Shown: piece after piece, positions 2,807-36,323 of the stretch | Numbering within the stretch: the first letter of the stretch is position 1 | Layout of the letters: every line of letters begins with the position of its first letter | Source: a virus | Direction: 5' to 3' (one strand) | DNA length: 39,848 bases | Virus record (IMG/VR): IMGVR_UViG_3300026130_000012 | Location: 1-39,848 of that record | The notes under the pieces: model-generated | Database searches by the model: none | What the model saw: only the letters and a program-made list of their open reading frames with translations | Told to the model about the DNA's origin: nothing | Made by a program: the position numbers and the translations under genes

Positions 2807-4753
2807 TTAGAATGGCATTGCGCCAGCAGGCATTCCGTTAGACAGACTGTTAGATGCACCACCAATACCAACGGCTGTATTCGAGTCGCCACCAACAGTA
2901 GTATTAACACTGCGATTAGAGTTATCAACGTTGTTAACGACAATCGGCTGTTGCGCTTGTACTTGCTTAGCACGTTCTTCAATGGCAAGTAACTGAGCCT
3001 GTCTACGATCATTAATAGCCGCAATCTCAGCAGCCTGATTATTCTGTGCGTTACGTACAGCCGCATTTGCGGAAGCTATAGTCTCTTCATCTAGTAGACT
3101 AAACGACTTACCACCAATACCTGGCACCCAGTTTGGTACATCTAGTTTTACTGCACCGATAATGTTTGCGATAGCCGAAAGAAGCTTGGCTGGTAGTGAA
3201 GTAAAGAAGTCAGTAACTTCAATCATACCGATAGCAAAGTCTGCTTTGAGATTGGTCCAGAATGTTTCAGCGGCAAGCATAATCTCACCAGGTACAGCTT
3301 TGATAGCAGTAACAGCTTCTTCTAGCTTTATACCCAACCAACTACCAATTCCCGCTAAGCTTGTACGTACTGTTGCATACAAATCGAATGGGGGTGCGTC
3401 TTCGTCTTTCCAACCAAACTTCTTAGCAATCCAATCTATGCCACCAGAGATACCGTTAAAGATCATATTAGCGATACCACCTTCACCATAGATAGTAGTG
3501 AATAGATCAGTTAGTGCTTTCTTAGGATCAGTGAATAGTGTGCCAACCCAGTCTACAGCGCCTTGAACTATACCAAACATTCCTGATATAATACCACCGA
3601 TAGTCTCTTCAAAACTGAACGAGTTTAGTTTAGTGACTGCCCAGCCAGCTAGACCTTGACCTGGTTTAGCATTACCTTCTTTATCTACTTCAACACCAAA
3701 GAACTTCTTCAGAATCCAAGATACTCCAGACTTGAGAAGGTCAAATGGAGCGCCAATAAAATCACCCAAGAATGCACCAACACCGTCACCAAGCCTCGCA
3801 ATAAACCCATCTTTATCTGACTCCATATACGCAGTTACACCATCGAATGCAGAGAACAAGAATCCGATTGGTTTTAGAATCTTACCAACTATGCCTAAAA
3901 ATCCAGTAGCTTTAGAACCAACATCTTTTAGAAATGTGAATAGCTTAGCACCAGCGCCTGCACTGAAATCAGCTACAGCTTGTCCAGCATTCTTTAACGG
4001 ATTAAGAACACTACCAATACGCTCAACTATATCAGCCCAGAACTTGCCTTTTGTGTTAGTCATAAACTTACCGCCTTCGCCTCGTATAGCGATAGGCTTT
4101 CCGTCAACACCAAGACCAAACATTTTTAAAACGTTTGCTTTAACTTGAGCGAATCTAGCATTAATCTGTTCTAGCACAGGTGTTTTTAAACCACGTTTAC
4201 CAGTCTCAGGATCTTTCTTACCTAGACTAGCATCTAGACCAAAGGTGGTTAGAATTCTAGCTCTAGCATTGATAAACTTCTGATCAATTGTCTTAGCAAG
4301 AGATTCAGGCATTAGTGCTTTTAGATTAGCACCAATTTTATCAACGTTCTTTAGTGCACCAGCTTCCCAACCACGTAGACCCGCAAGAGCGCCACCAAAT
4401 GCAGTTAGACTTGCGAGTAGATTTCCAAAAGGAGCAAAGAACATGCCGACAAAGTTTTCACCCGCTTGAAATGCCGCACTACCTTGACCAACATCAGCGC
4501 CTGCTGGCGCAACATCAGCGGGATTAACTGACCCCTTCAGCTTTTCTTCACGGGCACGATCACGCATGTCCTCTTGCATAAGTCCAAACGACTTTTCAAG
4601 AGACTCTAACTGCTTTTCAGACAGAGACACCAAAGACTTATGTAGCGTATTAATACTTTCTACTTGCTCGTTAGACGTATCACGCAACTCTTCACGTGTA
4701 TCCTGATTGTCTGCCTTCAGTGCTTCTATAAGGGCTTTAAAGTTATCGGCCAT
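2807..4753 (-). CDS. Tail tape-measure / hub protein (gp29-like role)
   Basis: A 648-residue protein with an N-terminal coiled coil (about 1-75), a long middle rich in Gly/Ala/Phe with hydrophobic stretches (about 100-130 and 270-560), and a second coiled coil near 580-610 rich in Ala, Glu and Gln. This architecture and its place directly behind gp26 and the gpT-like extension fit the tape measure, which sets tail length (gp29 in T4, about 590 residues). Sequence identity to T4 gp29 is not evident to me, so the call rests on architecture and context. The ATG at 4753 immediately follows the upstream stop codon, with AGGA as ribosome site. Confidence 0.72.
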   Translation of the reverse strand: MADNFKALIEALKADNQDTREELRDTSNEQVESINTLHKSLVSLSEKQLESLEKSFGLMQEDMRDRAREEKLKGSVNPADVAPAGADVGQGSAAFQAGENFVGMFFAPFGNLLASLTAFGGALAGLRGWEAGALKNVDKIGANLKALMPESLAKTIDQKFINARARILTTFGLDASLGKKDPETGKRGLKTPVLEQINARFAQVKANVLKMFGLGVDGKPIAIRGEGGKFMTNTKGKFWADIVERIGSVLNPLKNAGQAVADFSAGAGAKLFTFLKDVGSKATGFLGIVGKILKPIGFLFSAFDGVTAYMESDKDGFIARLGDGVGAFLGDFIGAPFDLLKSGVSWILKKFFGVEVDKEGNAKPGQGLAGWAVTKLNSFSFEETIGGIISGMFGIVQGAVDWVGTLFTDPKKALTDLFTTIYGEGGIANMIFNGISGGIDWIAKKFGWKDEDAPPFDLYATVRTSLAGIGSWLGIKLEEAVTAIKAVPGEIMLAAETFWTNLKADFAIGMIEVTDFFTSLPAKLLSAIANIIGAVKLDVPNWVPGIGGKSFSLLDEETIASANAAVRNAQNNQAAEIAAINDRRQAQLLAIEERAKQVQAQQPIVVNNVDNSNRSVNTTVGGDSNTAVGIGGASNSLSNGMPAGAMPF

Positions 4754-4915
4754 TTATTGGTCCTTTTGTGATTCTAAAAAGTCTACTAACATATCATAGT
4801 ATAAATCTCTTTCATAAGGCAATAAATTTTCAATTTCGCTTATCTGATATTTATGATGTTGAGCCAAGGCGAATATCATTTTGTAGTAAATGAGTAGATT
4901 CGTATGACTCAACAC
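4754..4915 (-). CDS. gp51/gpT-like tail-assembly extension, probably made by -1 frameshift from gp26
   Basis: An open frame of 53 codons between gp26 and the tape measure, encoding HHKYQISEIENLLPYERDLY followed by YDMLVDFLESQKDQ. This resembles the second half of tape-measure chaperones (gpT of lambda, gp51 region of T4). It has no good independent start: GTG at 4915 and ATG at 4879 lack Shine-Dalgarno sites. The frame is -1 relative to gp26, and gp26 ends in ACU-UUU-UUU-AUC-UAG, a run of seven U that would allow a -1 slip joining both frames. The last codon touches the tape-measure ATG. Confidence 0.6.
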   Translation of the reverse strand: MLSHTNLLIYYKMIFALAQHHKYQISEIENLLPYERDLYYDMLVDFLESQKDQ

Positions 4916-5610
4916 TAGATAAAAAAAGTTTCCGTTCCTTGAATAACGAAAGTTTTTTCTTTACCAGTATTATCAGTGTACTTGTGTTCATACTTCATTG
5001 CTGGGATCGTATCAAAGAAGTCTTTGATCTTAGCGATTACACCAGAACTTAGTCCATCAATGAAATCGTTCACTTCTTCTTTGCTAAACTCTTTTAGCTT
5101 GTAAACATCTTCACCATCTACAACACTGTCAATACAGTATGTGATAGCATCAAACATCGATTGATCATTATCCTCAGAAGTCAATGCAGTCATAAAATCG
5201 ATGTTAGGGTATTTCAAAATTAGAACAACATCGTCATTCACGTATACTTTGTTATCGTGATTTTCGCTACGCTGAATCTTGATATCGTCTACATCAATCT
5301 CAATCTTAACCTCTTCTTCAGTGTCGGGATCTTTGATTGAGAACTTCAGTTCGTTGTTTACCGCTTTAGCACGAATGTTAAGCATTAGATATTCTAGATC
5401 AAATACAGCAAGATCATCAACGTCAACGCCAACCAAACAATTCGTTAGAATTTGCTTGATAGCTGTTACGACTTGTTCAATCTCTTTTGACTCTTGTGCA
5501 ATCAAAAGGATCTTTTCTTCTTTAACTGTAAATGGTCTAAACTTCACCTTCTTGCCGCTTGATGGTACTGTGACCGTAAAAAGCGGCTGGTCAATCTTCG
5601 GTAATGGCAT
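4915..5610 (-). CDS. 26: Baseplate hub assembly protein gp26-like
   Basis: A 231-residue protein beginning MPLPKIDQPLFTVTVPSSGK and followed by KVKFRPFTVKEEKILLIAQE, the characteristic N-terminus of marine T4-like gp26 proteins. gp26 is needed for hub assembly and probably acts with the tape measure as a chaperone. It has AGGAG at good spacing and a near-consensus late box (GATAAATA) about 32 nt upstream. Its 3' end carries the UUUUUUU slippery run (4921-4927) just before the stop. Confidence 0.78.
   Translation of the reverse strand: MPLPKIDQPLFTVTVPSSGKKVKFRPFTVKEEKILLIAQESKEIEQVVTAIKQILTNCLVGVDVDDLAVFDLEYLMLNIRAKAVNNELKFSIKDPDTEEEVKIEIDVDDIKIQRSENHDNKVYVNDDVVLILKYPNIDFMTALTSEDNDQSMFDAITYCIDSVVDGEDVYKLKEFSKEEVNDFIDGLSSGVIAKIKDFFDTIPAMKYEHKYTDNTGKEKTFVIQGTETFFI
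4921..4927 (-). promoter_or_regulatory. Candidate -1 ribosomal frameshift site (UUUUUUU)
   Basis: Seven consecutive U in the mRNA sit two codons before the gp26 stop. In the gp26 frame they read (AC)U-UUU-UUU, an X-XXY-YYZ heptamer, and slipping back one base enters the 53-codon downstream frame that ends at the tape-measure start. Confidence 0.5.
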
Positions 5611-5641
5611 TATATACTCCTATACTATAATCAATGCATTC

Positions 5642-5649
5642 TATTTATC
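5642..5649 (-). promoter_or_regulatory. Candidate late promoter box GATAAATA for gp26
   Basis: One mismatch from TATAAATA, about 32 nt upstream of the gp26 start and overlapping the end of the upstream gene. Spacing matches the other late boxes in this window. Confidence 0.45.
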
Positions 5650-6406
5650 AGAGGCCTAGCGCATTAGTAATCGTTCTTACACTGTCAACGGTATTGATAA
5701 CATCTTGAATATTGCGTGGACGCTTGATCTGATCAATCGCTTGAATAAGACCGTTAGCGGCTGATAGATATGACAACAAACCGTTACCACGACTGCGATT
5801 ACCAATTGCACCTTTAGCTTGCCCGTCTACTTCAATTGTATCATACGTAAACGTCACTGGCAATGTCATAATTTCAGCAGAGTTCTCCCATGCAGTAGAC
5901 ATATTACCAATCGTAATTGGATATGCGCCAGTCATTTTATATGTGTATGTAAAGTCTTGAACGGCTGTAGAGTACACAACAACTTCAACAGTTGCGGCAT
6001 AGTCTTCTTTGTATCCCATTTCAAAAGGAAGCGCTTCGTCTACTTCACCTAGAGTACTAGTCTTATCATAGTTCACGATTGCTTGAGTCCATCTATGAAA
6101 GAACTTTAATACAGCAAATTTACTATCAATCATAAAGACAGTGTTTAGTGGTTGTAGAGGCATATTGGTGGGTCTACGATCAGGCGTACCAAAAGCTTGA
6201 GGTAGAACATCTTGAGTTTGCATCTGAAAGCCAGGTAGATCAGCAGAGCGACAGAAGAACACTAGATCCTGTTCTTTCATTGTCGAGCCCTCTTGATTGA
6301 GAATTCTAGCTACGGGCGTACCAGTAATACGAACTAGAAATAAGTTGTTCTGTGCTACACCGTGCTTGTTAATACTAGCATTAAATTCTGATATATTGAA
6401 AGCCAT
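5648..6406 (-). CDS. Tail-tube-family protein (gp54 tube initiator or gp19 tube)
   Basis: A 252-residue protein from ATG 6406 (MAFNISEFNASINKHGVAQN); this start has GGAA six bases upstream, while the ATG at 6418 has none. It shares the T4 gp54/gp19 tube layout: an N-terminal segment like T4 'EEFN...QRNNMF', a helix FHRWTQAIVNYDKTST like T4 'MQDWVNSVQDPVTG', and a late beta region AYPITIGNMSTAWEN before MTLPVTFTYDTIEV, like 'CIPISVSAPELSYD...FDVTFAYRV'. Hub neighbours favour gp54; length does not settle it. A perfect late box lies about 35 nt upstream. Confidence 0.65.
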   Translation of the reverse strand: MAFNISEFNASINKHGVAQNNLFLVRITGTPVARILNQEGSTMKEQDLVFFCRSADLPGFQMQTQDVLPQAFGTPDRRPTNMPLQPLNTVFMIDSKFAVLKFFHRWTQAIVNYDKTSTLGEVDEALPFEMGYKEDYAATVEVVVYSTAVQDFTYTYKMTGAYPITIGNMSTAWENSAEIMTLPVTFTYDTIEVDGQAKGAIGNRSRGNGLLSYLSAANGLIQAIDQIKRPRNIQDVINTVDSVRTITNALGL

Positions 6407-6440
6407 TGACGTTTCCATTTAGTTAGTTGGCATTTAAACT

Positions 6441-6448
6441 TATTTATA
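6441..6448 (-). promoter_or_regulatory. T4-type late promoter box TATAAATA
   Basis: Exact TATAAATA on the minus strand, about 35 nt before the start codon at 6406 and just downstream of the gp32 terminator. Confidence 0.75.
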
Positions 6449-6458
6449 TCAGAAAATT

Positions 6459-6480
6459 AAAAAGGGGGCCGAAGCCCCCT
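6459..6480 (-). terminator. Rho-independent terminator after gp32
   Basis: On the minus strand AGGGGGC, loop TTCG, GCCCCCT forms a 7-bp GC-rich stem with a stable tetraloop, followed by TTTTTAATTTT. It lies just after the gp32 stop and separates gp32 from the late tail operon. Confidence 0.85.
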
Positions 6481-6485
6481 TGAAA

Positions 6486-7412
6486 TTAATCGTCTGCTAG
6501 ACTCTTGAAGAAGTCGAGGTCATCGTCATCGTCAGAACTAGAGAACGACATTTCGGTTGGAGCGGGTGCTTCATCCAACGCAGGAGCGGACTGCGCTTTA
6601 AATTTAGGAGTGAAGTCCATCTCCGGCTCATCATCCTCGGCAGTTGTGGTGGGTGCGTGAGTACTGCCATCAAGACCGAGTACTTTGTAAAGCTTAGCTT
6701 TCAGTTCCTCATATGACTTGAAGTTTTTAGGATCGATGATCTCTTGCAATGAATACTGGCTCTTCCAGATTCTTTCTAGCTCTTCGTCATCTTCAAGCAA
6801 TGTGCTTGGTGATTCAAAAGCAGAAGGCTCGTATGTACGGTAACCACCATCACCGTTACGTGCTTTCAATTTGAAGTTAGCGCCTTCCCAAAAATCAAAT
6901 GGGTTCATTGGCGTTTCATCTTCAAACTCTGGATTCATGGCAGCATTCAATTTGTCAAAGATTTTCTTACCAAACTTGTACTTGAAGACTTTACCTTCGT
7001 TCTGAGGATTGGCTGGATCTTTGACTACGTAAATGTTAGCGTGATAAGATAGACGGCGCTTCTGTTTACGTGCTTGCTCTTTACCTGCTTCAGTGCCGTT
7101 GTTCCACAGCATTGAATTGTATTCTGAAACTGGATCGTCTTTGCCGATAGTAGTCAATGAGTTTTCGATGTACCAGCCACCAACGTCTTTGAAGCCATGA
7201 TCAAAGACACGTACAAATGGCAAGTCTTCGCCTTCAGGTGCAGGTAGGAATCGAATTACAGCGTAGCCGTTGCCAGCTTTATCAACTTCAAGCTTCCAGT
7301 ACTCTTCACTTGCAGAAGGAGCACCCCCTTGGTTGAGTTTTTGTAGCTGAGAGTTTAGCTTGTCAAAGCTAGAAGTGCGCTGTTTTTTTAGTGCGGCAAA
7401 AGAAGTAGACAT
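6486..7412 (-). CDS. 32: Single-stranded DNA-binding protein gp32
   Basis: A 308-residue protein. An N-terminal LAST-like basic segment precedes the OB core: '[20 protein letters not shown]' followed by [15 protein letters not shown] is nearly T4 gp32 ('[35 protein letters not shown]'). The C-terminus is strongly acidic ([18 protein letters not shown]), as needed for contacts with gp59 and the polymerase. gp32 coats ssDNA in replication and recombination. Unlike T4, the region that should bind zinc (about 80-100) has no cysteines, as in cyanophage versions. AGGAG precedes the ATG and a strong terminator follows. Confidence 0.95.
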   Translation of the reverse strand: [308 protein letters not shown]

Positions 7413-7495
7413 AGTTTTATCTCCTAGTATATAAACGGTATATTGCGATATATGAGCGATTTGTCTTGCGAGTTATCTTTCATATGTGTTGTATA

Positions 7496-8095
7496 TTACA
7501 TTGTTTCTTCGAATCTGTCAAGGAGTATTTTCTTCATTTTTGATTTATCGTATTCCAAAAATGGGCGATACTTCCTCATCAGGTTAGCGATAGTAGGCCA
7601 TACAATAGTGTCAGAAATATTCTTCTCCCAGTATGACATACACTTAACAACATCACATAGTATAACTAGAGTCTCAAGGCTTATCTGTCTCATGTTGTAG
7701 AGTTTAATGACTCTAGGATGCTGACCATTCTCAACATAAAAGTTAGAGTTAAAGTCATCATCAAGGTTATTTATATCATTCTTGAAGTTATAAGTCAAGG
7801 CTTGCTTACGTTTAGTCCAAGTCTGATATATTTCAGCAGCTTTATCATCTAACAAATCGCCTGCCCATACGTTTGGATCAACAAGCATATTTGCTAGAAT
7901 CAAGTCTTGTGCATCTTTACGCTTCGATAGTTTGTAAAAGAAAAACTTATCCTTGCGATTCTCAAATGACATAGCATTAGCTTTAACCTTGCCATTGTAC
8001 TTGAAGAAATCATATGAAGACGTAAAGTGTCTTTTCAGTGCAAGGTAGTAGACATAGATATCGAATGCGTCCCTTGTACTATATGCGCTTTGCAT
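7496..8095 (-). CDS. 59: Helicase loader gp59
   Basis: A 199-residue protein that follows T4 gp59: 'DIYVYYLALKRHFTSSYDFF' then KYNGKV near the N-terminus (T4 'VYKLYLMIKQHMNGKYDVIKYN'), RKDKFFFYKLS (T4 'RRDKYFFQKLS'), and ISLETLVILCDVV (T4 'ISFETFILLDSFL'). gp59 loads the gp41 helicase onto gp32-coated DNA. It starts by TAATG overlap with gp33 and lies upstream of gp32, the same gene group as in T4. Confidence 0.9.
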   Translation of the reverse strand: MQSAYSTRDAFDIYVYYLALKRHFTSSYDFFKYNGKVKANAMSFENRKDKFFFYKLSKRKDAQDLILANMLVDPNVWAGDLLDDKAAEIYQTWTKRKQALTYNFKNDINNLDDDFNSNFYVENGQHPRVIKLYNMRQISLETLVILCDVVKCMSYWEKNISDTIVWPTIANLMRKYRPFLEYDKSKMKKILLDRFEETM

Positions 8096-8322
8096 TAGAT
8101 TGGTAACCTCGCTGTTGGTTCAATCATGTTTAGCTTTTCAGCTTCATTCTGTATCATAGCTTTGAGTAGAGGTGAGTGCTTAACGATTTCACCTACTACT
8201 TCAATTTCTAAGTTGTTGCGGTCGGCATAGTCAACCACAGCATCAATGTAAGAAACACCTGCATCCAAGTGCTTCTGAATTTCATTAAGTATACGTTCTG
8301 AGTTCAATGCTTTAATAGCCAT
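8095..8322 (-). CDS. 33: Late transcription coactivator gp33
   Basis: A 75-residue protein with the segment 'GVSYIDAVVDYADRNNLEIE' and VVGEIVKHSPLL, the layout of short gp33 proteins in marine T4-like phages. gp33 bridges the sliding clamp and RNA polymerase flap so that late promoters are activated. Its gene is directly upstream of gp59 and gp32, as in T4. The TATAAATA boxes elsewhere in the window agree with a gp55/gp33 late system. Confidence 0.75.
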   Translation of the reverse strand: MAIKALNSERILNEIQKHLDAGVSYIDAVVDYADRNNLEIEVVGEIVKHSPLLKAMIQNEAEKLNMIEPTARLPI

Positions 8323-8324
8323 GA

Positions 8325-8540
8325 CTATACCTTAGTGTATGTCAGGGTTGAAAGCTTTGCCTCAACATTAGATTTACATTCGTCTAAAGTGTATTCAGAT
8401 TTATTGAATGCATAACCAAGTGGAACATTGCCAGAAACTGCCTCACCCGGATCAAGTACTAGATCGAACTGATAAATTTTATCGTTTTCTGAGATATTAA
8501 AATTAAGGTCGGCAACAGTTGCTTTTTCAATGAATGTCAT
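8325..8540 (-). CDS. Hypothetical protein, 71 aa
   Basis: A small acidic protein (MTFIEKATVADLNFNISEND) with no motif I recognise. It lies two bases from gp33 and one base after the next small gene, so it is co-transcribed with the gp33-gp59 genes. GAGTATA-type ribosome site upstream. Confidence 0.6.
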   Translation of the reverse strand: MTFIEKATVADLNFNISENDKIYQFDLVLDPGEAVSGNVPLGYAFNKSEYTLDECKSNVEAKLSTLTYTKV

Positions 8541-8541
8541 A

Positions 8542-8736
8542 TTATACTCCGTTCTTTTTAATTCCAGCTACCCAATTTTCAGCCGCTTCTTCTACGTAAG
8601 CAAGAGTCTTACCTTTGAAAGATTCGACTTCTTCTATATCACCATTAGCATTATAGAATTCTATATTGTAGTAGTCAACCCTAAGAACAACATTAGCCTT
8701 GGCGCCATCATCACGATAGTATTCAGATATTACCAT
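8542..8736 (-). CDS. Hypothetical protein, 64 aa
   Basis: Starts at ATG 8736 with GAGG seven bases upstream; an in-frame start at 8748 has no ribosome site. The product (MVISEYYRDDGAKANVVLRV...) has no recognised domain. It is the first gene after an early promoter at 8804-8832 and its leader holds a pair of 13-nt direct repeats. Confidence 0.6.
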   Translation of the reverse strand: MVISEYYRDDGAKANVVLRVDYYNIEFYNANGDIEEVESFKGKTLAYVEEAAENWVAGIKKNGV

Positions 8737-8745
8737 AATGTACCT

Positions 8746-8791
8746 CACACTTTTCTGCGGTTAAAATTGGATAAATTGCACACTTTTCTGC
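8746..8791. repeat. Pair of 13-nt direct repeats CACACTTTTCTGC
   Basis: Identical copies at 8746-8758 and 8779-8791, 33 bp apart (about three helical turns), inside the leader between the promoter's -10 and the start codon at 8736. This looks like a tandem binding site for a regulator or an RNA element. Confidence 0.6.
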
Positions 8792-8803
8792 ACGTACCTG
8801 TAT

Positions 8804-8832
8804 AATGTAGCACTAATTGCGAGTTATGTCAA
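8804..8832 (-). promoter_or_regulatory. Sigma70-type promoter TTGACA-17-TACATT
   Basis: Consensus -35, optimal spacer and a good -10 on the minus strand. The -35 overlaps the end of the bilin reductase gene. It drives the 64-aa gene and probably gp33-gp59-gp32. Confidence 0.7.
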
Positions 8833-9516
8833 GTCAGGAAATAAACATTTCTCTACAAATGTATCTACGTCATCAGGATCAAGTCCAAGCGTCTTCATAA
8901 CACGAGGTGTATGTGGATTCTGCTTCTGATAGTACGCATAGCGATTCTGAGCGTCTTTTCCTAGTTGGATATGCTGATTGACTCCATACTTCCCAACTTC
9001 GCTTAGAAAGTACTGTGCGTTCTCTAGAGCGATGTTTCGTACTTGTTCAATCTCTTCTTCACTGTTGACGTTACCAGCAGCCATCATGCTTTCAGTAAAG
9101 ATAGCGTTAGCCCAGTCAGGCAATTTTCTTTCACGCTTCCACTGTAGCTTACTCACACGCTTTGCAAAGTGTTCTATCATAGGATGATTGGATTCAGTTG
9201 TAGGTGAGAAATCGTGAAACGCACCAGTCATTTTATTCTTACCAGCGATAACATCAAAGCCATAGATCGGTGCATTGCTATCAAGATGAGGAAAGATGCA
9301 AACGTGCATCATCCATAATCCTCTTTCTTCACGTGCATCTACAACGTCTACGTGAGCCCTTCTAAAATCAGGACTACGCCACACACGATTAACCCAACTC
9401 CCATCAGAGTGATTGAATCTACCAAGTCCATCTTCTTCATATTCTTCACCCACCGATTCAAATAGATCAATGTATTCATCTTTTAGCTTTATTAGAGAAT
9501 CCCAGACTTTACTCAT
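8824..9516 (-). CDS. pcyX: Ferredoxin-dependent bilin reductase, PcyX/PebS type
   Basis: A 230-residue member of the ferredoxin-dependent bilin reductases, which reduce biliverdin to phycobilins. The core 'APIYGFDVIAGKNKMTGAFH' plus DFSP is diagnostic, as is the late segment YAYYQKQNPHTPRVMKTLG. The Asp of DFSP (102 here, 105 from an upstream in-frame ATG at 9525) is the conserved catalytic Asp. Where many relatives have Asp in 'N-D-K-T' this protein has N-P-H-T. Start 9516 has AGGGA well spaced; either start overlaps the heme oxygenase gene, so the two are translationally coupled. PcyX enzymes, described from uncultured marine phage sequences, make phycoerythrobilin; that product here is inferred, not seen. 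Confidence 0.87.
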   Translation of the reverse strand: MSKVWDSLIKLKDEYIDLFESVGEEYEEDGLGRFNHSDGSWVNRVWRSPDFRRAHVDVVDAREERGLWMMHVCIFPHLDSNAPIYGFDVIAGKNKMTGAFHDFSPTTESNHPMIEHFAKRVSKLQWKRERKLPDWANAIFTESMMAAGNVNSEEEIEQVRNIALENAQYFLSEVGKYGVNQHIQLGKDAQNRYAYYQKQNPHTPRVMKTLGLDPDDVDTFVEKCLFPDLT

Positions 9517-10066
9517 ACGGCTCATTCCCTAGCTCATGGAATAGCTCTATAGCAAACTCAAAACATTTGTTAGCTTCGTCTGCCATATCATCATTCAGAA
9601 GTTCACGTAGCGAGATTTTTAGCTCTTCTTTGTTATCGAATTCGTACATGCGACCTGAACCAGGAATGCGCTTAGCGATCATTGCGCCACCGTACATATC
9701 ACCAAAATGGCGCACGTACATATGAGCAATAAGGGATTGTAGATCGCCCTTTGAGCGTAGATCATCAATGTGATCAGCGTATGCAATGGTTGAAGGTGTT
9801 AGAATGTCAGAGTCAAATACAATATCAAAGTCATTCAACAATTCTTTAATGTCTTCATTGATCTTGTCTGCACGGTATACATCAGCTAACTCACTTGGAA
9901 ACTCTAGTGCTTCTAAAGCATCTTCCAGCGCTAGATAGTTGTGTAGCTGATTGTATAGGTATTTTATGTATAGAGTCGGGCTGATATTACCACTCATAAG
10001 AATGGCGGCGAACTTCTTACGTTCTGCCTTTTTGTGGTTGTCCCACGTTAGTTCTTTAAGACTCAT
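9509..10066 (-). CDS. ho1: Heme oxygenase (biliverdin-forming)
   Basis: A 185-residue heme oxygenase. His11 in WDNHKKAER is the expected proximal heme ligand, and IAHMYVRHFGDMYGGAMIAK (113-132) is the distal helix with the conserved GD-x-x-GG. The enzyme opens heme to biliverdin, CO and iron using ferredoxin or another reductant, feeding the bilin reductase encoded next. It starts at ATG with GGAG seven bases upstream and has its own early promoter at 10120-10148. Shorter than cyanobacterial HO1 (about 240) but close to phage forms. Confidence 0.92.
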   Translation of the reverse strand: MSLKELTWDNHKKAERKKFAAILMSGNISPTLYIKYLYNQLHNYLALEDALEALEFPSELADVYRADKINEDIKELLNDFDIVFDSDILTPSTIAYADHIDDLRSKGDLQSLIAHMYVRHFGDMYGGAMIAKRIPGSGRMYEFDNKEELKISLRELLNDDMADEANKCFEFAIELFHELGNEPYE

Positions 10067-10094
10067 TATATATCTCCATAGTAACTCAGAAAGA

Positions 10095-10119
10095 AAAGCC
10101 CCACATTGAGCAGGGCTTT
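10095..10119 (-). terminator. Terminator-like hairpin after the kinase-like gene
   Basis: Minus-strand AAAGCCC, 11-nt loop, GGGCTTT, then TTCTTTC. It follows the stop at 10132. The predicted start of ho1 transcription (about 10113) falls at the end of its first arm. Confidence 0.65.
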
Positions 10120-10148
10120 ATACTATCTTACTTATGCTTCCCAGTCAA
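10120..10148 (-). promoter_or_regulatory. Sigma70-type promoter TTGACT-17-TAGTAT for ho1-pcyX
   Basis: The -35 lies inside the last codons of the kinase-like gene and the -10 just after its stop. Spacer is exactly 17. It is the only plausible promoter immediately ahead of the heme oxygenase gene. Confidence 0.68.
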
Positions 10149-11034
10149 TACCTTTCGGTACGTAGCCTGCGATCTTAGCTTTGATATCTTTAGATAGTTT
10201 ATCCATTGGGGTTACGTCTTTACCAGCTTTCTTCACGTAGAAAAAGTTAGCATCCTTGATGTACATACCACCTTTACCAGACTTAGCAACTTCACTGTCT
10301 ACACCAACTTTGTTGAATGCAAACACGATATCACCGTCCATGTACTTCTTGAGTTCTTTGCCCATGTTGATAATGTCACCCATAGTCTGTGAAGCACCAC
10401 GGTGAGTGTTGACAAGAATCTCAACAGGTACAGTACGTGAGCGCTGTTGGTTCTGAGTCTTAGCAACTTCGATATCGTTGATTACCCATACAATGTGAAT
10501 GTTTTTAGCACTGTAGCCTAGATTCTTAACTTGGCGAGTAATCTTCTCAAGCTTACGCAAGTCTTTCAAAGTAACGTCAAAGATAACGTTAGGCTTACGA
10601 TCAGGGTGAGCAGTCATAATAGAAGTGTATAGAGACTTAGTACGGCGATCATCTAGCTTCAAGTAGTCACCAATAATCTCATGCATCTTAGACACGTTCT
10701 CAGGCGTTTTAAGATTAGCCGCTAGATCAGCAATGTCTACACCTAAATCTTTCTTGACACGCTTCTGAATAGCTGGAGTAGCAGCCGCAAGAGTCTTGAG
10801 TTCATCAACGTCAAATGTAAAGCCTTCAGCGCCTACTAGCTTGTCTTTAACGAAACCTTTACCAGAGCCAGCACCACCAGCCATGATGATTACGTTACCA
10901 AATTTTGGATAAGCTTGACCACCAAAAGTAATTAGCTTTTCGACTAGTTCTTGATATTGTTCTTCAAGAAACTCTTCGACTAGCTTCTCCTCAGCAATCA
11001 ATTCTTCCTTCAAAAAGTTTTCAAAAGATAACAC
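10132..11034 (-). CDS. P-loop kinase-like protein (zeta-toxin/AAA-like)
   Basis: A 300-residue protein beginning with GTG at 11034, preceded by AGGAG and six bases. A Walker A motif GGAGSGKG (53-60) follows the hydrophobic strand NVIIMA, and a second strand PNVIFDVTLKD comes at about 158-168. Overall it looks like a kinase or zeta-toxin-type phosphotransferase; substrate unknown. Basic Arg-rich stretch QQRSRTVPVEILVNTHRG may form a lid. T4-type late box 37 nt upstream, so expressed late. Similar P-loop proteins occur in Vibrio T4-like phages. Confidence 0.65.
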   Translation of the reverse strand: MLSFENFLKEELIAEEKLVEEFLEEQYQELVEKLITFGGQAYPKFGNVIIMAGGAGSGKGFVKDKLVGAEGFTFDVDELKTLAAATPAIQKRVKKDLGVDIADLAANLKTPENVSKMHEIIGDYLKLDDRRTKSLYTSIMTAHPDRKPNVIFDVTLKDLRKLEKITRQVKNLGYSAKNIHIVWVINDIEVAKTQNQQRSRTVPVEILVNTHRGASQTMGDIINMGKELKKYMDGDIVFAFNKVGVDSEVAKSGKGGMYIKDANFFYVKKAGKDVTPMDKLSKDIKAKIAGYVPKGIDWEA

Positions 11035-11069
11035 GTTATTCTCCTAATTGGAAAGTTCTTATTGTAAAC

Positions 11070-11579
11070 TTATTTATAAAAAATATGACTGTCAATGCGA
11101 ACTGTTTTATCGTAAGAGTCAACCCAATAAGGATTAACATATGATGCATGATACATAGTAGCACCTTCTGTTGGATCGTCTACAATGCCATACTCAATCA
11201 TTACACGATACGCTAATTCAAGTGCTTGCTCCCACATAACTTCATCACGTGGCTTATCACTTTTACCATCACAGTACCAAGAGAACTGACATTTGTTGCG
11301 AATAGGATTACCATGAGAATCACGATAAGATTGATATACAACATCACAAGGAGTTGAAGGATAACGTTCTGAGTTAACACGATTCATAGTAACAAATCCT
11401 ACTGCTTTCTGAGCAATACGACTTTCAGAACGTGATTCGTGATATATGTTAAGAGCCACACACTCTAGCTGAGTATCAAAGTCAGCAGTAGCAACGTATG
11501 GTTCTTGAGGAATAACATCTGCATTTACAGCAGAAGCCATTAGAGATAGTGCTAGAGTAGTACCTAAGATTTTAATCAT
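11070..11579 (-). CDS. SleB-type cell wall hydrolase with signal peptide
   Basis: A 169-residue protein. Residues 1-20 (MIKILGTTLALSLMASAVNA) form a clear Sec signal peptide ending at an A-x-A-type site. The rest is a Hydrolase_2/SleB domain: LECVALNIYHESRSESR with the catalytic Glu of YHESR, then CQFSWYCDGKSDKP and ATMYHASYVNPYW. The enzyme would cut peptidoglycan in the periplasm, so it could be the endolysin or a wall-remodelling factor. It has a consensus sigma70 promoter rather than a late box; its 3' end carries the late box of the next gene. Confidence 0.87.
   Translation of the reverse strand: MIKILGTTLALSLMASAVNADVIPQEPYVATADFDTQLECVALNIYHESRSESRIAQKAVGFVTMNRVNSERYPSTPCDVVYQSYRDSHGNPIRNKCQFSWYCDGKSDKPRDEVMWEQALELAYRVMIEYGIVDDPTEGATMYHASYVNPYWVDSYDKTVRIDSHIFYK
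11071..11078 (-). promoter_or_regulatory. T4-type late promoter box TATAAATA for the kinase-like gene
   Basis: Exact TATAAATA, 37 nt before the GTG start at 11034, overlapping the last codons of the cell-wall hydrolase gene. Confidence 0.72.
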
Positions 11580-11611
11580 TGAAGATCCTTATGATCATTA
11601 TCGACAAAGAG

Positions 11612-11640
11612 ATTCTATCAACATTGCATAGGCCTGTCAA
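11612..11640 (-). promoter_or_regulatory. Sigma70-type promoter TTGACA-17-TAGAAT for the SleB gene
   Basis: Consensus -35, spacer 17 and one mismatch in the -10, about 35 nt before the start codon at 11579. Confidence 0.75.
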
Positions 11641-11651
11641 GGGCAAAACAT

Positions 11652-11678
11652 AAAAAAAAGGGAAGATTAATTCTTCCC
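11652..11678 (-). terminator. Rho-independent terminator of the GGDEF-EAL operon
   Basis: Minus-strand GGGAAGA, 5-nt loop, TCTTCCC, then eight T. It overlaps the last codons of the EAL gene and ends the operon just before the SleB promoter. Confidence 0.85.
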
Positions 11679-12347
11679 TATATTAGCCTCTATATGATCA
11701 AGCGGTTCTGGTATATGAAAGTAATAACCTTGATAGTACCTAAAACCAATGTCTCTTAATACAGAGGCTTGAAAGTGCGTCTCAACACCTTCAACAATAC
11801 AAAGCTTATTTGATTTATTACTTTTAGCATAAATGATTTTTAGTTTTGATAATATGTCTGCATCTTTAAACTGTCTACTTTCTGCGAGCGCTATCATTTC
11901 CTTATCTAGCTTAAACCCATCGAACTTATATCGGTCTAACGTTTCAACATCATTAACACTCCAATCAAAATCATCTAGAAATAGATTTGCACCGTATCTG
12001 TGTTTTAGACCAAACACTTCATCCCTTTCTGGCAATTCGTGCACCTGAGTAACTTCTATTATTATATTATCTTGATACCCATTCAATACATCTAGATTAA
12101 CATCATTAAAAATATGCTTGTCTAGATTTACGGTACATCGAATACCAGTATTTGTGTAGAAGCGTATCGCACGTTCTACTTGATAATAAAACCAATCGAC
12201 CAACTCATCTTTTGATGCAGTTTTAAAGAATGATTCGATATCATCTATCTGATTCTTTCTAGGTCTTGCTAGCAATTCTATTGCATATATTTTACCAGTT
12301 TTAATATCTACAATTTTGTGTCCATATACCTCAAATTTAGTCTTCAC
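11667..12347 (-). CDS. EAL-domain cyclic-di-GMP phosphodiesterase
   Basis: A 226-residue stand-alone EAL domain, cytosolic. Family signature residues are all in place: E-L-L (24-26, in place of EAL) with Arg28, Asn74 (TVNLD), Glu98 (IEVTQ), Asp125-Asp126 (LDDFD), Lys147 (FKLDK), Glu186 (VEGVET) and Gln206 (YQGYYF). These are the metal- and substrate-binding residues of active enzymes that linearise c-di-GMP to pGpG. The start is GTG at 12347, overlapping the TGA of the GGDEF gene (GTGA), so translation is coupled to it. Terminated by a strong hairpin at its 3' end. Confidence 0.9.
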   Translation of the reverse strand: MKTKFEVYGHKIVDIKTGKIYAIELLARPRKNQIDDIESFFKTASKDELVDWFYYQVERAIRFYTNTGIRCTVNLDKHIFNDVNLDVLNGYQDNIIIEVTQVHELPERDEVFGLKHRYGANLFLDDFDWSVNDVETLDRYKFDGFKLDKEMIALAESRQFKDADILSKLKIIYAKSNKSNKLCIVEGVETHFQASVLRDIGFRYYQGYYFHIPEPLDHIEANIGKN

Positions 12348-13687
12348 TCTATATTCCCAACAGTAATCGTATTACGCCCATTATTTTTTGAATCGTACAG
12401 CGCTTCATCAGCAATCTTGACCGCCTTGTCAAATGAAGACCTTTTATTATATATACTGATACCAAACGATGCTGTAACAGCAGGTATCTCTTTGTTTGCT
12501 TTAGTTTCGTTTTCGATGCGGAGACGAATAGTTTCAGCAGTCGCTAGAGAATCAACTAAGTTTGACTCTGGCATTAGAATCATAAACTCTTCACCTCCCC
12601 ATCTTACGAATGCATCTGTTTTACGTATAGTGCTTCTGATAATTTCAGAAAACTCTTCTAAAACAACGTCACCTATATTATGCCCATAAGTGTCATTAAC
12701 TACTTTGAATTTATCTAGATCAATTAGCACTAGAGCAAACGTTTGTTCATGGTGTAATTCTATATAGTCGTTTAGACCACGCCTAGTCAAAGCACCTGTT
12801 AGTTGATCATGTACTGCGATTTGATTTAACTTGTTATATGCATTGATAAGAGACTTTCTCTGTCTACTGTATAGATTACCAAACTGGACATTAAGTTTTA
12901 TTGAACCCCATATCAGAACAGTCGCATAAATGACTATGATGTCCATTGATTCTATATTTAATGTAGCCAGTGCTACACCAATAATGAAGACACCAATTAC
13001 ATATATTAATGTCTGTCTAGCCACAAGCTTTCTAGTAGGTTTATCAAGCGCAACGCCTCTTAGCACTGGCTTGCGTATAAACTGTGTAATATTTGCACCA
13101 GCTAGCAATAATAACAATACTGTTGACGTTATACTCATATACCCAGATAGCTTATCATATGAGAATAAGTAAGATAGTGCAGAAGCGACTGGCACTATCC
13201 AAGCAAACTCGGCAAGCATATACGAGACTTTCCAGTTTTTGATGTATAGAAGTTGAGATAACCCCAAGATAATAATCGATATCGATGTATTAAATCCAAT
13301 CGTATAATTATTCAAGTCTGGATGGTAACCATTATAAAGAAATTCTTCAAGCGGATCATATACACTTTGATCAACACCAATAATGTAGTATAGATTGATA
13401 GCTATAACTAGTGCCAATGAAACCTTACAATTTAATGTTAAAGTACTTAATGTATTCAGATGCTTTGCACATTTGGCTAGCATAAAAAACGAAATAAGAG
13501 TTAGTGTATGAGTTCCTTGATTTTGAATATAGTCTATCCAAATTGAGTCTTTATATTCGTTAAAGTAGGTTATGTAGTCTATCAACAGTAGCGCCATTAA
13601 TAGCATTGCTATATTTAATAAGCACCATCTTGTTATTAAAATCCCCCTCACAAATCCATAGTCGAAATTTTCATTCTTTCTTTTCAT
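12344..13687 (-). CDS. Membrane-bound GGDEF diguanylate cyclase
   Basis: A 447-residue protein. Residues about 15-265 hold seven or eight hydrophobic membrane segments of a MASE-like sensor. Residues about 285-447 are a GGDEF domain: DQLTGALTRRG (294-304), LIDLDKFKVVND (321-332), and active-site GGEEF (364-368). An inhibitory RxxD site (RKTD, 355-358) lies exactly five residues before it, as in product-regulated cyclases. It should make cyclic-di-GMP from two GTP at the inner membrane. Middle gene of a three-gene operon with a membrane protein before and the EAL enzyme after. Confidence 0.92.
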   Translation of the reverse strand: MKRKNENFDYGFVRGILITRWCLLNIAMLLMALLLIDYITYFNEYKDSIWIDYIQNQGTHTLTLISFFMLAKCAKHLNTLSTLTLNCKVSLALVIAINLYYIIGVDQSVYDPLEEFLYNGYHPDLNNYTIGFNTSISIIILGLSQLLYIKNWKVSYMLAEFAWIVPVASALSYLFSYDKLSGYMSITSTVLLLLLAGANITQFIRKPVLRGVALDKPTRKLVARQTLIYVIGVFIIGVALATLNIESMDIIVIYATVLIWGSIKLNVQFGNLYSRQRKSLINAYNKLNQIAVHDQLTGALTRRGLNDYIELHHEQTFALVLIDLDKFKVVNDTYGHNIGDVVLEEFSEIIRSTIRKTDAFVRWGGEEFMILMPESNLVDSLATAETIRLRIENETKANKEIPAVTASFGISIYNKRSSFDKAVKIADEALYDSKNNGRNTITVGNIE

Positions 13688-13708
13688 AGGTCGTCTTACT
13701 CGGTGTTT

Positions 13709-14074
13709 CTAGTCTTCGCCTTTATCCTCTACTTTAGACATTCCTAAGACTTTCAAAACAACGAGAGTTGAAATAACGTCTACTACTGTATTAATCAGTA
13801 TCCAAGGGAGAATAAAGTATACTGTGGCTGTATAACCAGCCTTGTGTAATATGATAGTCGCTGATATTTGAATCATTCGTCTAATCCACATATCTGACAT
13901 ATCGATATCCAAATTCAGAATTGAGTGCTTCATCCCGACTAGCAATTGAAAGCATAGAATGTAGAACATACACGACAATGCAATCATTGCGCCAGCGACA
14001 AAATCATAACTCCATACGTATTCGCTATTGAGTACTGGTAGTAGCATAGCGAAAAGTATTAACCAACGTATCAT
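13709..14074 (-). CDS. Hypothetical membrane protein, 121 aa, first gene of the c-di-GMP operon
   Basis: About three or four hydrophobic segments (1-20, 24-45, 68-85, 88-110) and a charged C-terminal tail (MSKVEDKGED). No family recognised. AAGGAA precedes its ATG and it is 21 nt upstream of the GGDEF gene, so they form one transcription unit. It could partner the sensor part of the cyclase, but nothing in the sequence shows this. Confidence 0.68.
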   Translation of the reverse strand: MIRWLILFAMLLPVLNSEYVWSYDFVAGAMIALSCMFYILCFQLLVGMKHSILNLDIDMSDMWIRRMIQISATIILHKAGYTATVYFILPWILINTVVDVISTLVVLKVLGMSKVEDKGED

Positions 14075-14093
14075 ATTTTTTCCTTATATTAGG

Positions 14094-14113
14094 AAGGGGC
14101 TCAATAGCCCCTT
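14094..14113 (-). terminator. Hairpin after the AAA+ gene, possible weak terminator
   Basis: An 8-bp perfect stem AAGGGGCT / AGCCCCTT with a 4-nt loop between the AAA+ stop and the c-di-GMP operon. There is no T-tract after it on the minus strand, so it may be a leader structure instead. Confidence 0.45.
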
Positions 14114-14134
14114 ACATCTATGTATATAAACCGA

Positions 14135-15292
14135 TTAGTCTTCGTAGCTGTACTCACCTTCTTCGGTCATTACATTGCTATCATCTAGACCAGCATCAAT
14201 TTTTTCGTAAAGGTCGATGAAAGCGGCACGTGTATCAGCATCGAAACGATTCACACATAGTTCAATTGCTTTCTTGCGATCATTGAAGATTGAGAAAGTC
14301 TGGACAATGTGACACAAGCGGCGAGTCGAAATGATTTCATCAACACCACCATCTTCGAAAGTCTTACGAATCGCTTGACCCCACTTCACAAGATTCTCGG
14401 TAAACTCTTCATCAGACACACCGAACTTAGCCATGTGATTAGTGACAATCTTTTTCTCAACAGCGCCAGATGGGTAAGGCTGTTCAAGAGTAACATTGAA
14501 GCGCTCAAGGAAAGCTTCATCGATGATAGTAGCCGCAATGAATCGACCAGCTTCATCACCCTGACCTTTAGTGTTTGCAGTAGCGATAACGTTGAAGCCG
14601 TTAGCCGCAGTGATTACTTCACCAGTTTTCTTGATCAAGAATGGCTTGCCTTCTAGAATGCCCTGTAGACACATCAGCTTGTTTGAACCACGGTCGATTT
14701 CATCAATCATCAGAACAGCACCAGCTTCCATCGCTTTGATAACTGGACCTTTCTGGAAAACAGTCTCACCATCGATCAAACGGAAGCCACCGATCAAATC
14801 ATCTTCATCAGTCTCAGGTGTAATCTGAACACGAACATATTCACGCTTAGACATAGCGCAAGCCTGTTCAATCATCATTGTCTTACCGTTACCAGATAGA
14901 CCAGCAACGTACATTGGGAAGAACATCTTAGAATCGATGATCTTTTTAACGTCAGCGAAGTAGCCCCACTTAACGAAAGTAGCGTCTTTCTCTGGCACGT
15001 AGACTTCATCAGAAGTTACAGACTGTACAGCAGAAGCGATTTTACGAGGAGTCATTGCAGGAGTCTCAGGAGCATTATTAGCGACAGGCATACGAACTAC
15101 AGCGCCAGCCATCTGCATTGTATACAGACCGTGACCTGCTTTATTTAGCTTCTTCATCAGACCTGAAGCAGTGCCACGCTTAGCACCGACAGAAGCCGCA
15201 AAAGAGTAGAGTTCATCACGCTTGAAAGTGTCTTTAGTTGGGTTAGCTTCAACAAACGCTTCAAGCAACTGGATCTGAGTCATAGTAGTCAT
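14135..15292 (-). CDS. MoxR/CobS-like AAA+ ATPase
   Basis: A 385-residue protein. Residues 1-70 look like a small helical, winged-helix-type domain; the ATPase core follows with Walker A GLSGNGKT (131-138), Walker B VLMIDEID (193-200), and sensor region FNVIATANTKG with a later arginine pair (STRRLCH). MoxR/CobS-type ATPases act with a vWA protein; the large vWA-HExxH gene lies upstream at 16310-18541. Phage versions are often labelled CobS, but cobalt chelation is not supported here. Promoter at 15326-15353 and GAGAGA ribosome site. Confidence 0.85.
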   Translation of the reverse strand: MTTMTQIQLLEAFVEANPTKDTFKRDELYSFAASVGAKRGTASGLMKKLNKAGHGLYTMQMAGAVVRMPVANNAPETPAMTPRKIASAVQSVTSDEVYVPEKDATFVKWGYFADVKKIIDSKMFFPMYVAGLSGNGKTMMIEQACAMSKREYVRVQITPETDEDDLIGGFRLIDGETVFQKGPVIKAMEAGAVLMIDEIDRGSNKLMCLQGILEGKPFLIKKTGEVITAANGFNVIATANTKGQGDEAGRFIAATIIDEAFLERFNVTLEQPYPSGAVEKKIVTNHMAKFGVSDEEFTENLVKWGQAIRKTFEDGGVDEIISTRRLCHIVQTFSIFNDRKKAIELCVNRFDADTRAAFIDLYEKIDAGLDDSNVMTEEGEYSYED

Positions 15293-34951: not shown

Positions 34952-36091
34952 TCACTCCAATATATCACATATTTTGTTTGCTAGTGTCTCGAACCATTCT
35001 TGGTCATGACCACGTGTAGTCTCTGCGGCAGTACCAATACGAATACCAGAAGTCTCTACGAAAGATCGTGGATCGTTAGGTATGCCATTCTTATTCACAG
35101 TAATACCATTCTCTTCAAGTAGATCAGCGGCTTGACGACCAGAGTATTTGCTTTCACTCAAGTCCATAAGAATGATGTGTGAATCAGTGCCATTTGTCTG
35201 TACTCTGAACCCTCTTGCTCTAAACACTTCTGACATAGCACGGGCATTCTGCACAACGTTCTTAGCGTACTGCTTAAACTCTGGTGTATTCGCTTCGATA
35301 AATGACTGTGCTTTAGCGGCAATGATATGCATCAATGGGCCGCCTTGTGAACCCGGAAATACTGCACTGTTGATCTTACGTGTGTAGCTTTCATCGTTCC
35401 AAAGAATGATACCGCCTCTAGGGCCACGCAAAGTCTTATGAGTTGTAGACGTTACTACATCTGCATATGGCATTGGGTTAGGGTAAACGCCACCAGCAAT
35501 CAAGCCAGCATAGTGTGCCATATCAACTAGAAGATATGCATCTACTTCTTCTGCAATATCTCTAAATCGTTTAAAGTCGATGCCACGTGGATACGCACTA
35601 GCACCCGCTACAATCATATGAGGCTTAACTTCTAAAGCTTGCTCACGTATAGCATCGTAGTCTAGATAGCCGTCTTTGTCAACTCCGTAGTTGTAAGCTT
35701 CATAAATTTTACCTGAAATGTTTACAGGCGCACCATGACTCAAGTGACCACCACTTGCTAGATCCATGCCTAGAATGCGATCACCTGACTCTAGAAAAGC
35801 AAGATATACAGCAGTGTTAGCGTTAGCACCACAATGAGGTTGTACGTTAGCAAAGTTACAACCGTAAAGTTCTTTTAGCTGATCAATAGCAAGTTGCTCA
35901 ATCTCATCCATATGCTCACAGCCGTTATAGTAACGCTTGCCAGGATATCCTTCTGCATATTTGTTAGTAAAGATAGAACCTGCAAGTTCCATCACTGCAT
36001 CGCTAGCAAAGTTCTCACTTGCAATAAGTTCAATTGTGCTATATTGTCGATTCTCTTCTTTAGCTAGAATTTCTTTTATTCGATTGTCCAT
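34952..36091 (-). CDS. glyA: Serine hydroxymethyltransferase
   Basis: A 379-residue PLP enzyme from ATG 36091 (AGGA five bases upstream; the longer frame to 36157 is not supported). It follows bacterial GlyA closely: [26 protein letters not shown] (43-59), [31 protein letters not shown], and [13 protein letters not shown] with the PLP lysine Lys219. It converts serine plus tetrahydrofolate to glycine and 5,10-methylene-THF, the one-carbon donor for dTMP and hydroxymethyl-dCMP synthesis. The C-terminus stops about 35 residues before that of E. coli GlyA. Confidence 0.95.
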
Positions 36092-36098
36092 AGTAATC

Positions 36099-36323
36099 CT
36101 ATAAAAAGTATTCGTCTTTCTTTGCTTCGTAGTATTCTTTACCAATTGACTTGGCAAGTTCTTCTTCTATACCCCTACGCAAAAGCCACTCAACTACGCC
36201 TTCATCTTCTGGGATCATAGTATCAAGCGCTTCGCACCAGCTAGAACCTTTGACGTACATCACTGTACCGATGTGACTGTCTATCATTGCATTGTTCGTG
36301 ATTTCGTACTCTTCTTTTTCCAT
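36099..36323 (-). CDS. Hypothetical protein, 74 aa
   Basis: [20 protein letters not shown]..., acidic. ATG 36323 has GAGG five bases upstream; the start at 36344 lies in the previous gene. No domain recognised. Confidence 0.57.

Follow-up and report, generated by a model that had tools for sequence, protein, structure and literature searches.

IMG/VR virus record IMGVR_UViG_3300026130_000012 is a linear fragment of 39,848 bases, analyzed here in its entirety and referred to as the window, and it belongs to a marine T4-like virus of bacteria. Its larger genes lie mostly on the minus strand, and its T4-like hallmarks include a gp54-type tube cap, a gp2-type end protector, a baseplate hub, and a tail tube, together with gp32, gp59, gp33, PhoH, and CobS; the phage records nearest to its gp32 are cyanomyophages, at ∼60% identity. 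With T4-like hallmark genes on both sides, the window carries a pair of genes related to the second messenger cyclic-di-GMP (c-di-GMP), which signals bacteria to settle, one encoding a GGDEF domain and one an EAL domain, closed by a terminator:

12344..13687, minus strand: membrane diguanylate cyclase, GGDEF protein (ATG start, 447 amino acids; Pfam PF00990)
11667..12347, minus strand: stand-alone EAL-domain protein (GTG start, 226 amino acids; Pfam PF00563)
11659..11679, minus strand: intrinsic terminator closing the unit (stem AGGGAAGAATTAATCTTCCCT then TTTTTTTT, eight T)

An earlier reading of this DNA from the sequence alone (the sequence-only reading) had described three open reading frames at 11667-14074, a GTGA overlap between the GGDEF and EAL genes, and a strong terminator at the end of the unit. 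The three frames lie exactly where it had placed them, and the two signals are borne out as well: the genes are co-oriented, the GGDEF stop and the EAL GTG start overlap by GTGA in the sequence, and the terminator stem, running from 11679 to 11659 on the minus strand, folds better than nearly all shuffles (RNA fold z -2.4).

The upstream gene encodes a protein with an N-terminal multi-helix membrane region (residues ∼10-245), a signaling helix (∼247-292), and a GGDEF domain at 291-439 that matches PF00990 with an E value of 8.8e-38 (130 bits against a curated cut-off of 23.8). An RKTD inhibitory site (I-site) at 355-358 precedes GGEEF at 364-368 with five residues between them, just as the sequence-only reading had it. 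The GG(D/E)EF signature, the metal-binding aspartates, the DxDxFKxxND motif, and the terminal K/R are all kept, and in an alignment with 19 bacterial domains the metal, substrate, and I-site residues are invariant or nearly so. The best match in the PDB is PadC of Idiomarina (5llw, 2.4e-34). In an AlphaFold2 model, the predicted local distance difference test score (pLDDT) exceeds 90 across most of the GGDEF domain, the membrane part is modeled with low confidence, and a Pfam search assigned the membrane sensor region to no family. Judged by these sequence features, the GGDEF domain looks fully active, and the step from gene to enzyme is well supported for this protein.

The downstream gene encodes an EAL domain (PF00563, E value 2.6e-20, 73 bits against a curated cut-off of 31.3) with the TIM-barrel fold expected of the family, as judged from the family score, an AlphaFold2 model (pLDDT 87), and a Foldseek search in which that model matched c-di-GMP-bound EAL structures (E value 3.5e-15, template modeling score 0.81). 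All eight catalytic and metal-binding residues are kept (E24, N74, E98, D125, D126, K146, E186, and Q206), so the full residue set counted by the sequence-only reading is present, although the lysine is K146 and not K147. The same reading held that both enzymes look active; this stands for the intact GGDEF domain but is not secured for the EAL protein, in which the canonical loop 6 is missing. Because the catalytic residues are kept but loop 6 fails the comparison with active enzymes, the product is described here as an EAL-domain protein and not as a proven phosphodiesterase, and its hydrolysis of c-di-GMP is uncertain.

The pair sits in a variable slot within a conserved stretch of phage genome. 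Related marine virus contigs, gathered by searches with the kinase-like gene, the cell-wall hydrolase, and cobS (the anchor of the survey), share the gene order cobS, small membrane protein, slot, cell-wall hydrolase, kinase, heme oxygenase, and bilin reductase. The genes framing the slot in the window, and the cargo of one relative, are:

14135..15292, minus strand: CobS/MoxR-type AAA ATPase, backbone anchor upstream of the slot (PHROG 249, 4.2e-111)
13709..14074, minus strand: small membrane protein on the cobS side of the slot (121 amino acids; 21 nt upstream of the GGDEF gene)
11070..11579, minus strand: cell-wall hydrolase (SleB-type), the other slot border (Pfam PF07486, 2.7e-22)
L005:3265-9143: curli operon with FecR and CHASE2 class III adenylate cyclase genes (eight other records alike)

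The slot spans 2.1 kb in the window, where its cargo is the GGDEF-EAL pair. Among the records that have the membrane protein, ten (L012, L207, L208, L209, L210, L211, L212, L215, L220, and L225) show a slot shorter than 0.5 kb; that of L227 measures 0.9 kb and that of L004 4.1 kb. Nine records (L005, L213, L129, L219, L229, L216, L217, L223, and L237) have a slot with CsgF, CsgG, curlin-type, and FecR genes, a cassette type known from pelagiphages (PMC9599517); two of these are identical over the compared genes, one is cut by the contig end, and all but the cut record include a CHASE2 class III adenylate cyclase, with a slot of 7-9 kb. Curli genes (CsgG, CsgF, and curlin repeats) are absent from the window's slot. 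Cell-wall hydrolase homologs border the slot in relatives, and homologs of the small membrane protein follow cobS in relatives both with and without cargo. The pair thus has the marks of a cargo cassette, with phage genes in conserved order on both sides and empty or otherwise filled sites in relatives. The small membrane protein, which has no Pfam or PHROG match, is an old phage backbone gene; since it is present where the slot is empty, the acquired unit comprises the GGDEF and EAL genes only, and its inclusion in the unit by the sequence-only reading does not hold.

Searches with each protein separately found no relatives in viral contigs. A scan of viral contigs with a broader GGDEF alignment, covering the best 80 of 445 confirmed stretches, revealed two, L263 (IMG/VR 3300026130_000372) and L269 (IMG/VR 3300026125_000048), and a scan with an EAL alignment gave the same two. 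L269, whose record includes T4-type topoisomerase genes, encodes a membrane GGDEF protein, and only 4 nt separate its gene from the EAL gene behind it, the product of which is 37% identical to that of the window over its length. L263 encodes GGDEF and EAL fused in one 666-amino-acid protein; its record includes ribonucleotide reductase and virion genes, and it has bilin reductase, heme oxygenase, cell-wall hydrolase, and tail-chaperone genes in common with the window. Like the window, these T4-like phages combine a membrane GGDEF domain that keeps RxxD and GGEEF with an EAL domain that keeps all catalytic residues and lacks the canonical loop 6. They differ in genome position and in a cassette for small secreted proteins behind the pair, a relative of which fills the slot of L004:

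L263:5741-8879, L269:11584-13312, and L004:6879-8552: secreted-protein cassette (pilin-like, chaperone-like, coiled-coil, and one-helix proteins)

The recurrence of the pair as overlapping genes in the window, as genes 4 nt apart in L269, and as a fusion in L263 supports its reading as a cassette. Pairwise identity among the three EAL domains is only 28-37%, with 42 invariant columns that include all eight catalytic positions (chance ∼8e-7), and in a tree with 27 bacterial and large-phage EALs they form one clade with support of 100/100 under limited sampling. The GGDEF tree neither shows nor rejects the trio as a clade (approximately unbiased test, p-AU 0.49).

In six further contigs, some of them 115-394 kb in size, a long open reading frame (499-718 amino acids) encodes an EAL domain and the record also has a GGDEF match; in several the EAL domain directly follows the GGDEF domain. 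These large-phage hybrids (e.g. L290 at 394 kb, L291 at 237 kb, and L327 at 184 kb; PHROG 11823) resemble the window in having both domains in one virus, but they are single proteins with the canonical DDFGTGYSS loop 6 in those read, and they fall outside the EAL clade of the window, L263, and L269. The sequence-only reading had known of no phage with an opposed pair; this was wrong, as two related contigs and the large-phage hybrids carry both domains. The search it had proposed, of viral databases for GGDEF and EAL domains next to T4-like hallmark genes, here gave the two pairs and a stand-alone GGDEF gene. The latter (L287:2408-2959, 183 amino acids) lies between gp59- and gp32-type genes in a T4-like contig. 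A fold search of BFVD returned no viral EAL at E values up to 1e-3, and this absence was dropped as proof of rarity because PHROGs lists EAL-containing families.

Misassembly of phage and bacterial DNA is judged very unlikely, close to negligible, as both borders of the pair are clade-specific phage genes, 21 and 88 bp away and ordered as in relatives, and the pair recurs in two other T4-like contigs, whose EALs group with that of the window apart from bacterial EALs. When bacteria and archaea were scanned with one genome for each species, no close bacterial donor appeared among the matches listed, which were generic GGDEF matches near 44%, and a model of the phage EAL found only ordinary EALs, at ∼80 bits or less, in 16 bacterial genomes. 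One contig does give the misassembly account a foothold: L003 (6,794 bases, sample 3300007725) is 99.96% identical to window positions 4831-11625, confirming the cell-wall-hydrolase flank in another sample, and its end falls immediately short of the EAL terminator, perhaps because the slot is polymorphic or perhaps by chance. It is also unlikely, if less so, that the genes are passive passengers captured from a bacterium. The pair is rare among related phages, its GC content is low (EAL -3.7 and GGDEF -2.8 standard deviations), and the GGDEF codons are atypical, but the open frames, the kept active sites, and the long divergence within a shared phage EAL clade (100/100) argue for long maintenance in phages. 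The codons of the backbone membrane protein deviate even further, so codon bias was dropped as proof that the capture was recent.

Building on the observed genes, motifs, fold, operon layout, slot, and common phage EAL lineage, we infer enzyme activity, a direction of effect, and a benefit to the phage, and we favor, with modest confidence, the view that the pair serves the phage as a cargo cassette with which it sets the c-di-GMP of the infected cell. Production of c-di-GMP would fall to the membrane-anchored GGDEF protein, which its RxxD site would restrain by feedback and whose membrane part may sense a further limiting signal. The EAL protein, translationally coupled to the cyclase, would remove or bind c-di-GMP and so trim or time the signal. 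The net outcome would be an infected host in a sessile, matrix-making, or altered-surface state during virus production. The curli genes and adenylate cyclase that form the slot's other cargo would affect a similar kind of trait, and by analogy with the curli genes the pair could plausibly influence motility, biofilm, or receptors; the presence of the pair in a slot where related viruses carry curli genes suggests that these viruses tune the surface behavior of infected cells. Ideas published for phage curli, such as the capture of siblings and defense against superinfection (PMC7029224, PMC9599517), could by the same analogy extend to the c-di-GMP pair.

Several observations count against this reading. 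Loop 6 of the window's EAL is DDFDWSVNDV and not the DDFG(T/A)GYSS of active enzymes, and the loop-stabilizing glutamate (E268-type, the second Glu of the ExTE motif) is Gln101; loop 6 has been described as essential for EAL activity (PMC12943098) and as relevant to it (PMC11537037). The link to surface behavior is by gene neighborhood only, and one protein of the secreted cassette is common in marine phages (454 matches). No clear promoter for the GGDEF-EAL unit, and no T4-type late promoter TATAAATA ahead of it, was found in the window, nor was a c-di-GMP riboswitch or other Rfam RNA, and the proteins scanned included no PilZ effector. The cassette is also rare, since PF00990 matched none of 85 related virus records, a few of which were counted in both searches, and PF00563 matched none of 50 among them; many of these records are fragments.

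In the main rival explanation, the EAL protein has no phosphodiesterase role; as a c-di-GMP receptor or partner protein it would bind the product of the cyclase and control the cyclase or a host target, so that the unit would only raise c-di-GMP and would include its own read-out. In favor of this, all three phage EALs have a replaced loop 6, compared with a canonical loop in 37 of the 39 bacterial EALs where the motif was read, and the loop-stabilizing position is Gln, Gln, or His in the phage proteins. Degenerate EALs serve as receptors or partners in LapD (PMC3032553) and BluF (PMC3509220). The eight catalytic residues are nevertheless invariant across highly diverged phage homologs, unlike the decay of LapD-type receptors. 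Catalytic residues are decayed in that type, and a receptor role is considered possible but doubtful. With its catalytic residues kept and its loop gone, this odd EAL lineage offers a test of the need for loop 6 in catalysis. A role in counter-defense, with the EAL protein destroying a host cyclic-dinucleotide alarm like that of the cyclic oligonucleotide-based antiphage signaling system (CBASS) and the cyclase acting as decoy or antagonist, is highly improbable: the EAL has a cyclic-dinucleotide phosphodiesterase fold and phages encode other cyclic-nucleotide degraders, but a co-transcribed cyclase would oppose its action, no neighboring gene is defense-related, and the slot cargo of sister phages is curli and not counter-defense genes. 

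Two further signals flank the unit:

14086..14118, minus strand: hairpin GGGGCT-ATTG-AGCCCC after cobS (poor U tract; fold z -2.5)
11612..11640, minus strand: sigma-70-like promoter, TTGACA-17-TAGAAT (11/12, extended -10; consensus match only)

The hairpin drew no call in a terminator scan; it is possibly a leaky terminator, and the unit may be read through from cobS. The putative promoter would start the cell-wall hydrolase separately from the EAL unit.

Adjoining heme oxygenase and ferredoxin-dependent bilin reductase genes lie at window positions 8824-10066. Their closest cultured relatives, at 46.5%, are in Pelagibacter phage Mosig, where the gene context is different, and such genes occur in most phages of the window's clade and in the L263 phage. 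A supply of bilin for a host phytochrome-cyclase may be a link to the messenger; relatives own bilin genes without a GGDEF gene. Elsewhere in the window, an unusual phage cargo gene at 34952-36157 encodes serine hydroxymethyltransferase (Pfam 6e-155), a family that PHROGs labels only as "methyltransferase"; a 648-amino-acid open reading frame amid the baseplate genes (2807-4753) has no Pfam or PHROG match; and a zeta-toxin/AAA-type kinase gene at 10132-11034 is of a type that many T4-like phages carry (214 records, among them Klebsiella phages at 53%). Searches with the zeta-kinase and the bilin reductase gave no clue to the host of the window phage.

Tentatively, and short of a firm expectation, the comparison of slots can be taken further. 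T4-like marine phages may keep a c-di-GMP unit of their own, made of a membrane cyclase that is fused to, or co-translated with, a phage-specific EAL lineage with the canonical dimer/regulation loop replaced, and exchange it with the curli/adenylate-cyclase cassette, in which case the slot would be a "surface behavior" module that makes infected cells stick, aggregate, or change receptors via either of two second messengers. The slot makes such a reading testable, as sister phages carry nothing, curli with a cyclic AMP (cAMP) cyclase, or the c-di-GMP pair at one locus. If phages alter the lifestyle signal of infected cells, then aggregation, particle attachment, and superinfection at sea would be affected.

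Earlier publications have described phage diguanylate cyclases as well as a c-di-GMP phosphodiesterase from a virus. A diguanylate cyclase was described in a Mu-like virus from the Cariaco Basin (PMC7785012), sargassum viruses carry a mucR-type diguanylate cyclase or a yhjH-type phosphodiesterase (PMC11295528), and Bacillus phage SP-15 is an earlier-known case. These resemble the window in having GGDEF or EAL genes in phage genomes, but each is reported as a single gene, in some cases from a temperate or Mu-like phage, and they represent neither a coupled T4-like unit nor the window's EAL lineage; no description of a coupled GGDEF-EAL unit in T4-like phages was found in the open papers searched. 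The closest solved GGDEF domain by sequence, that of the bacteriophytochrome-controlled PadC, has the same GGEEF and RxxD layout, yet the sensor of PadC is a phytochrome, whereas that of the phage protein is a membrane region that belongs to no known family. Pelagimyophages and related phages are known to carry a curli (type VIII secretion) cassette that includes FecR and an adenylate cyclase (PMC7029224, PMC9599517, PMC9004378), and in the window's relatives this cassette occupies the same slot. It differs from the window's pair in that the window's messenger is c-di-GMP and not cAMP, its cyclase is paired with a degradative-type protein, and curli genes are lacking; what the two have in common is a second-messenger cyclase and genes tied to sessile or surface behavior.
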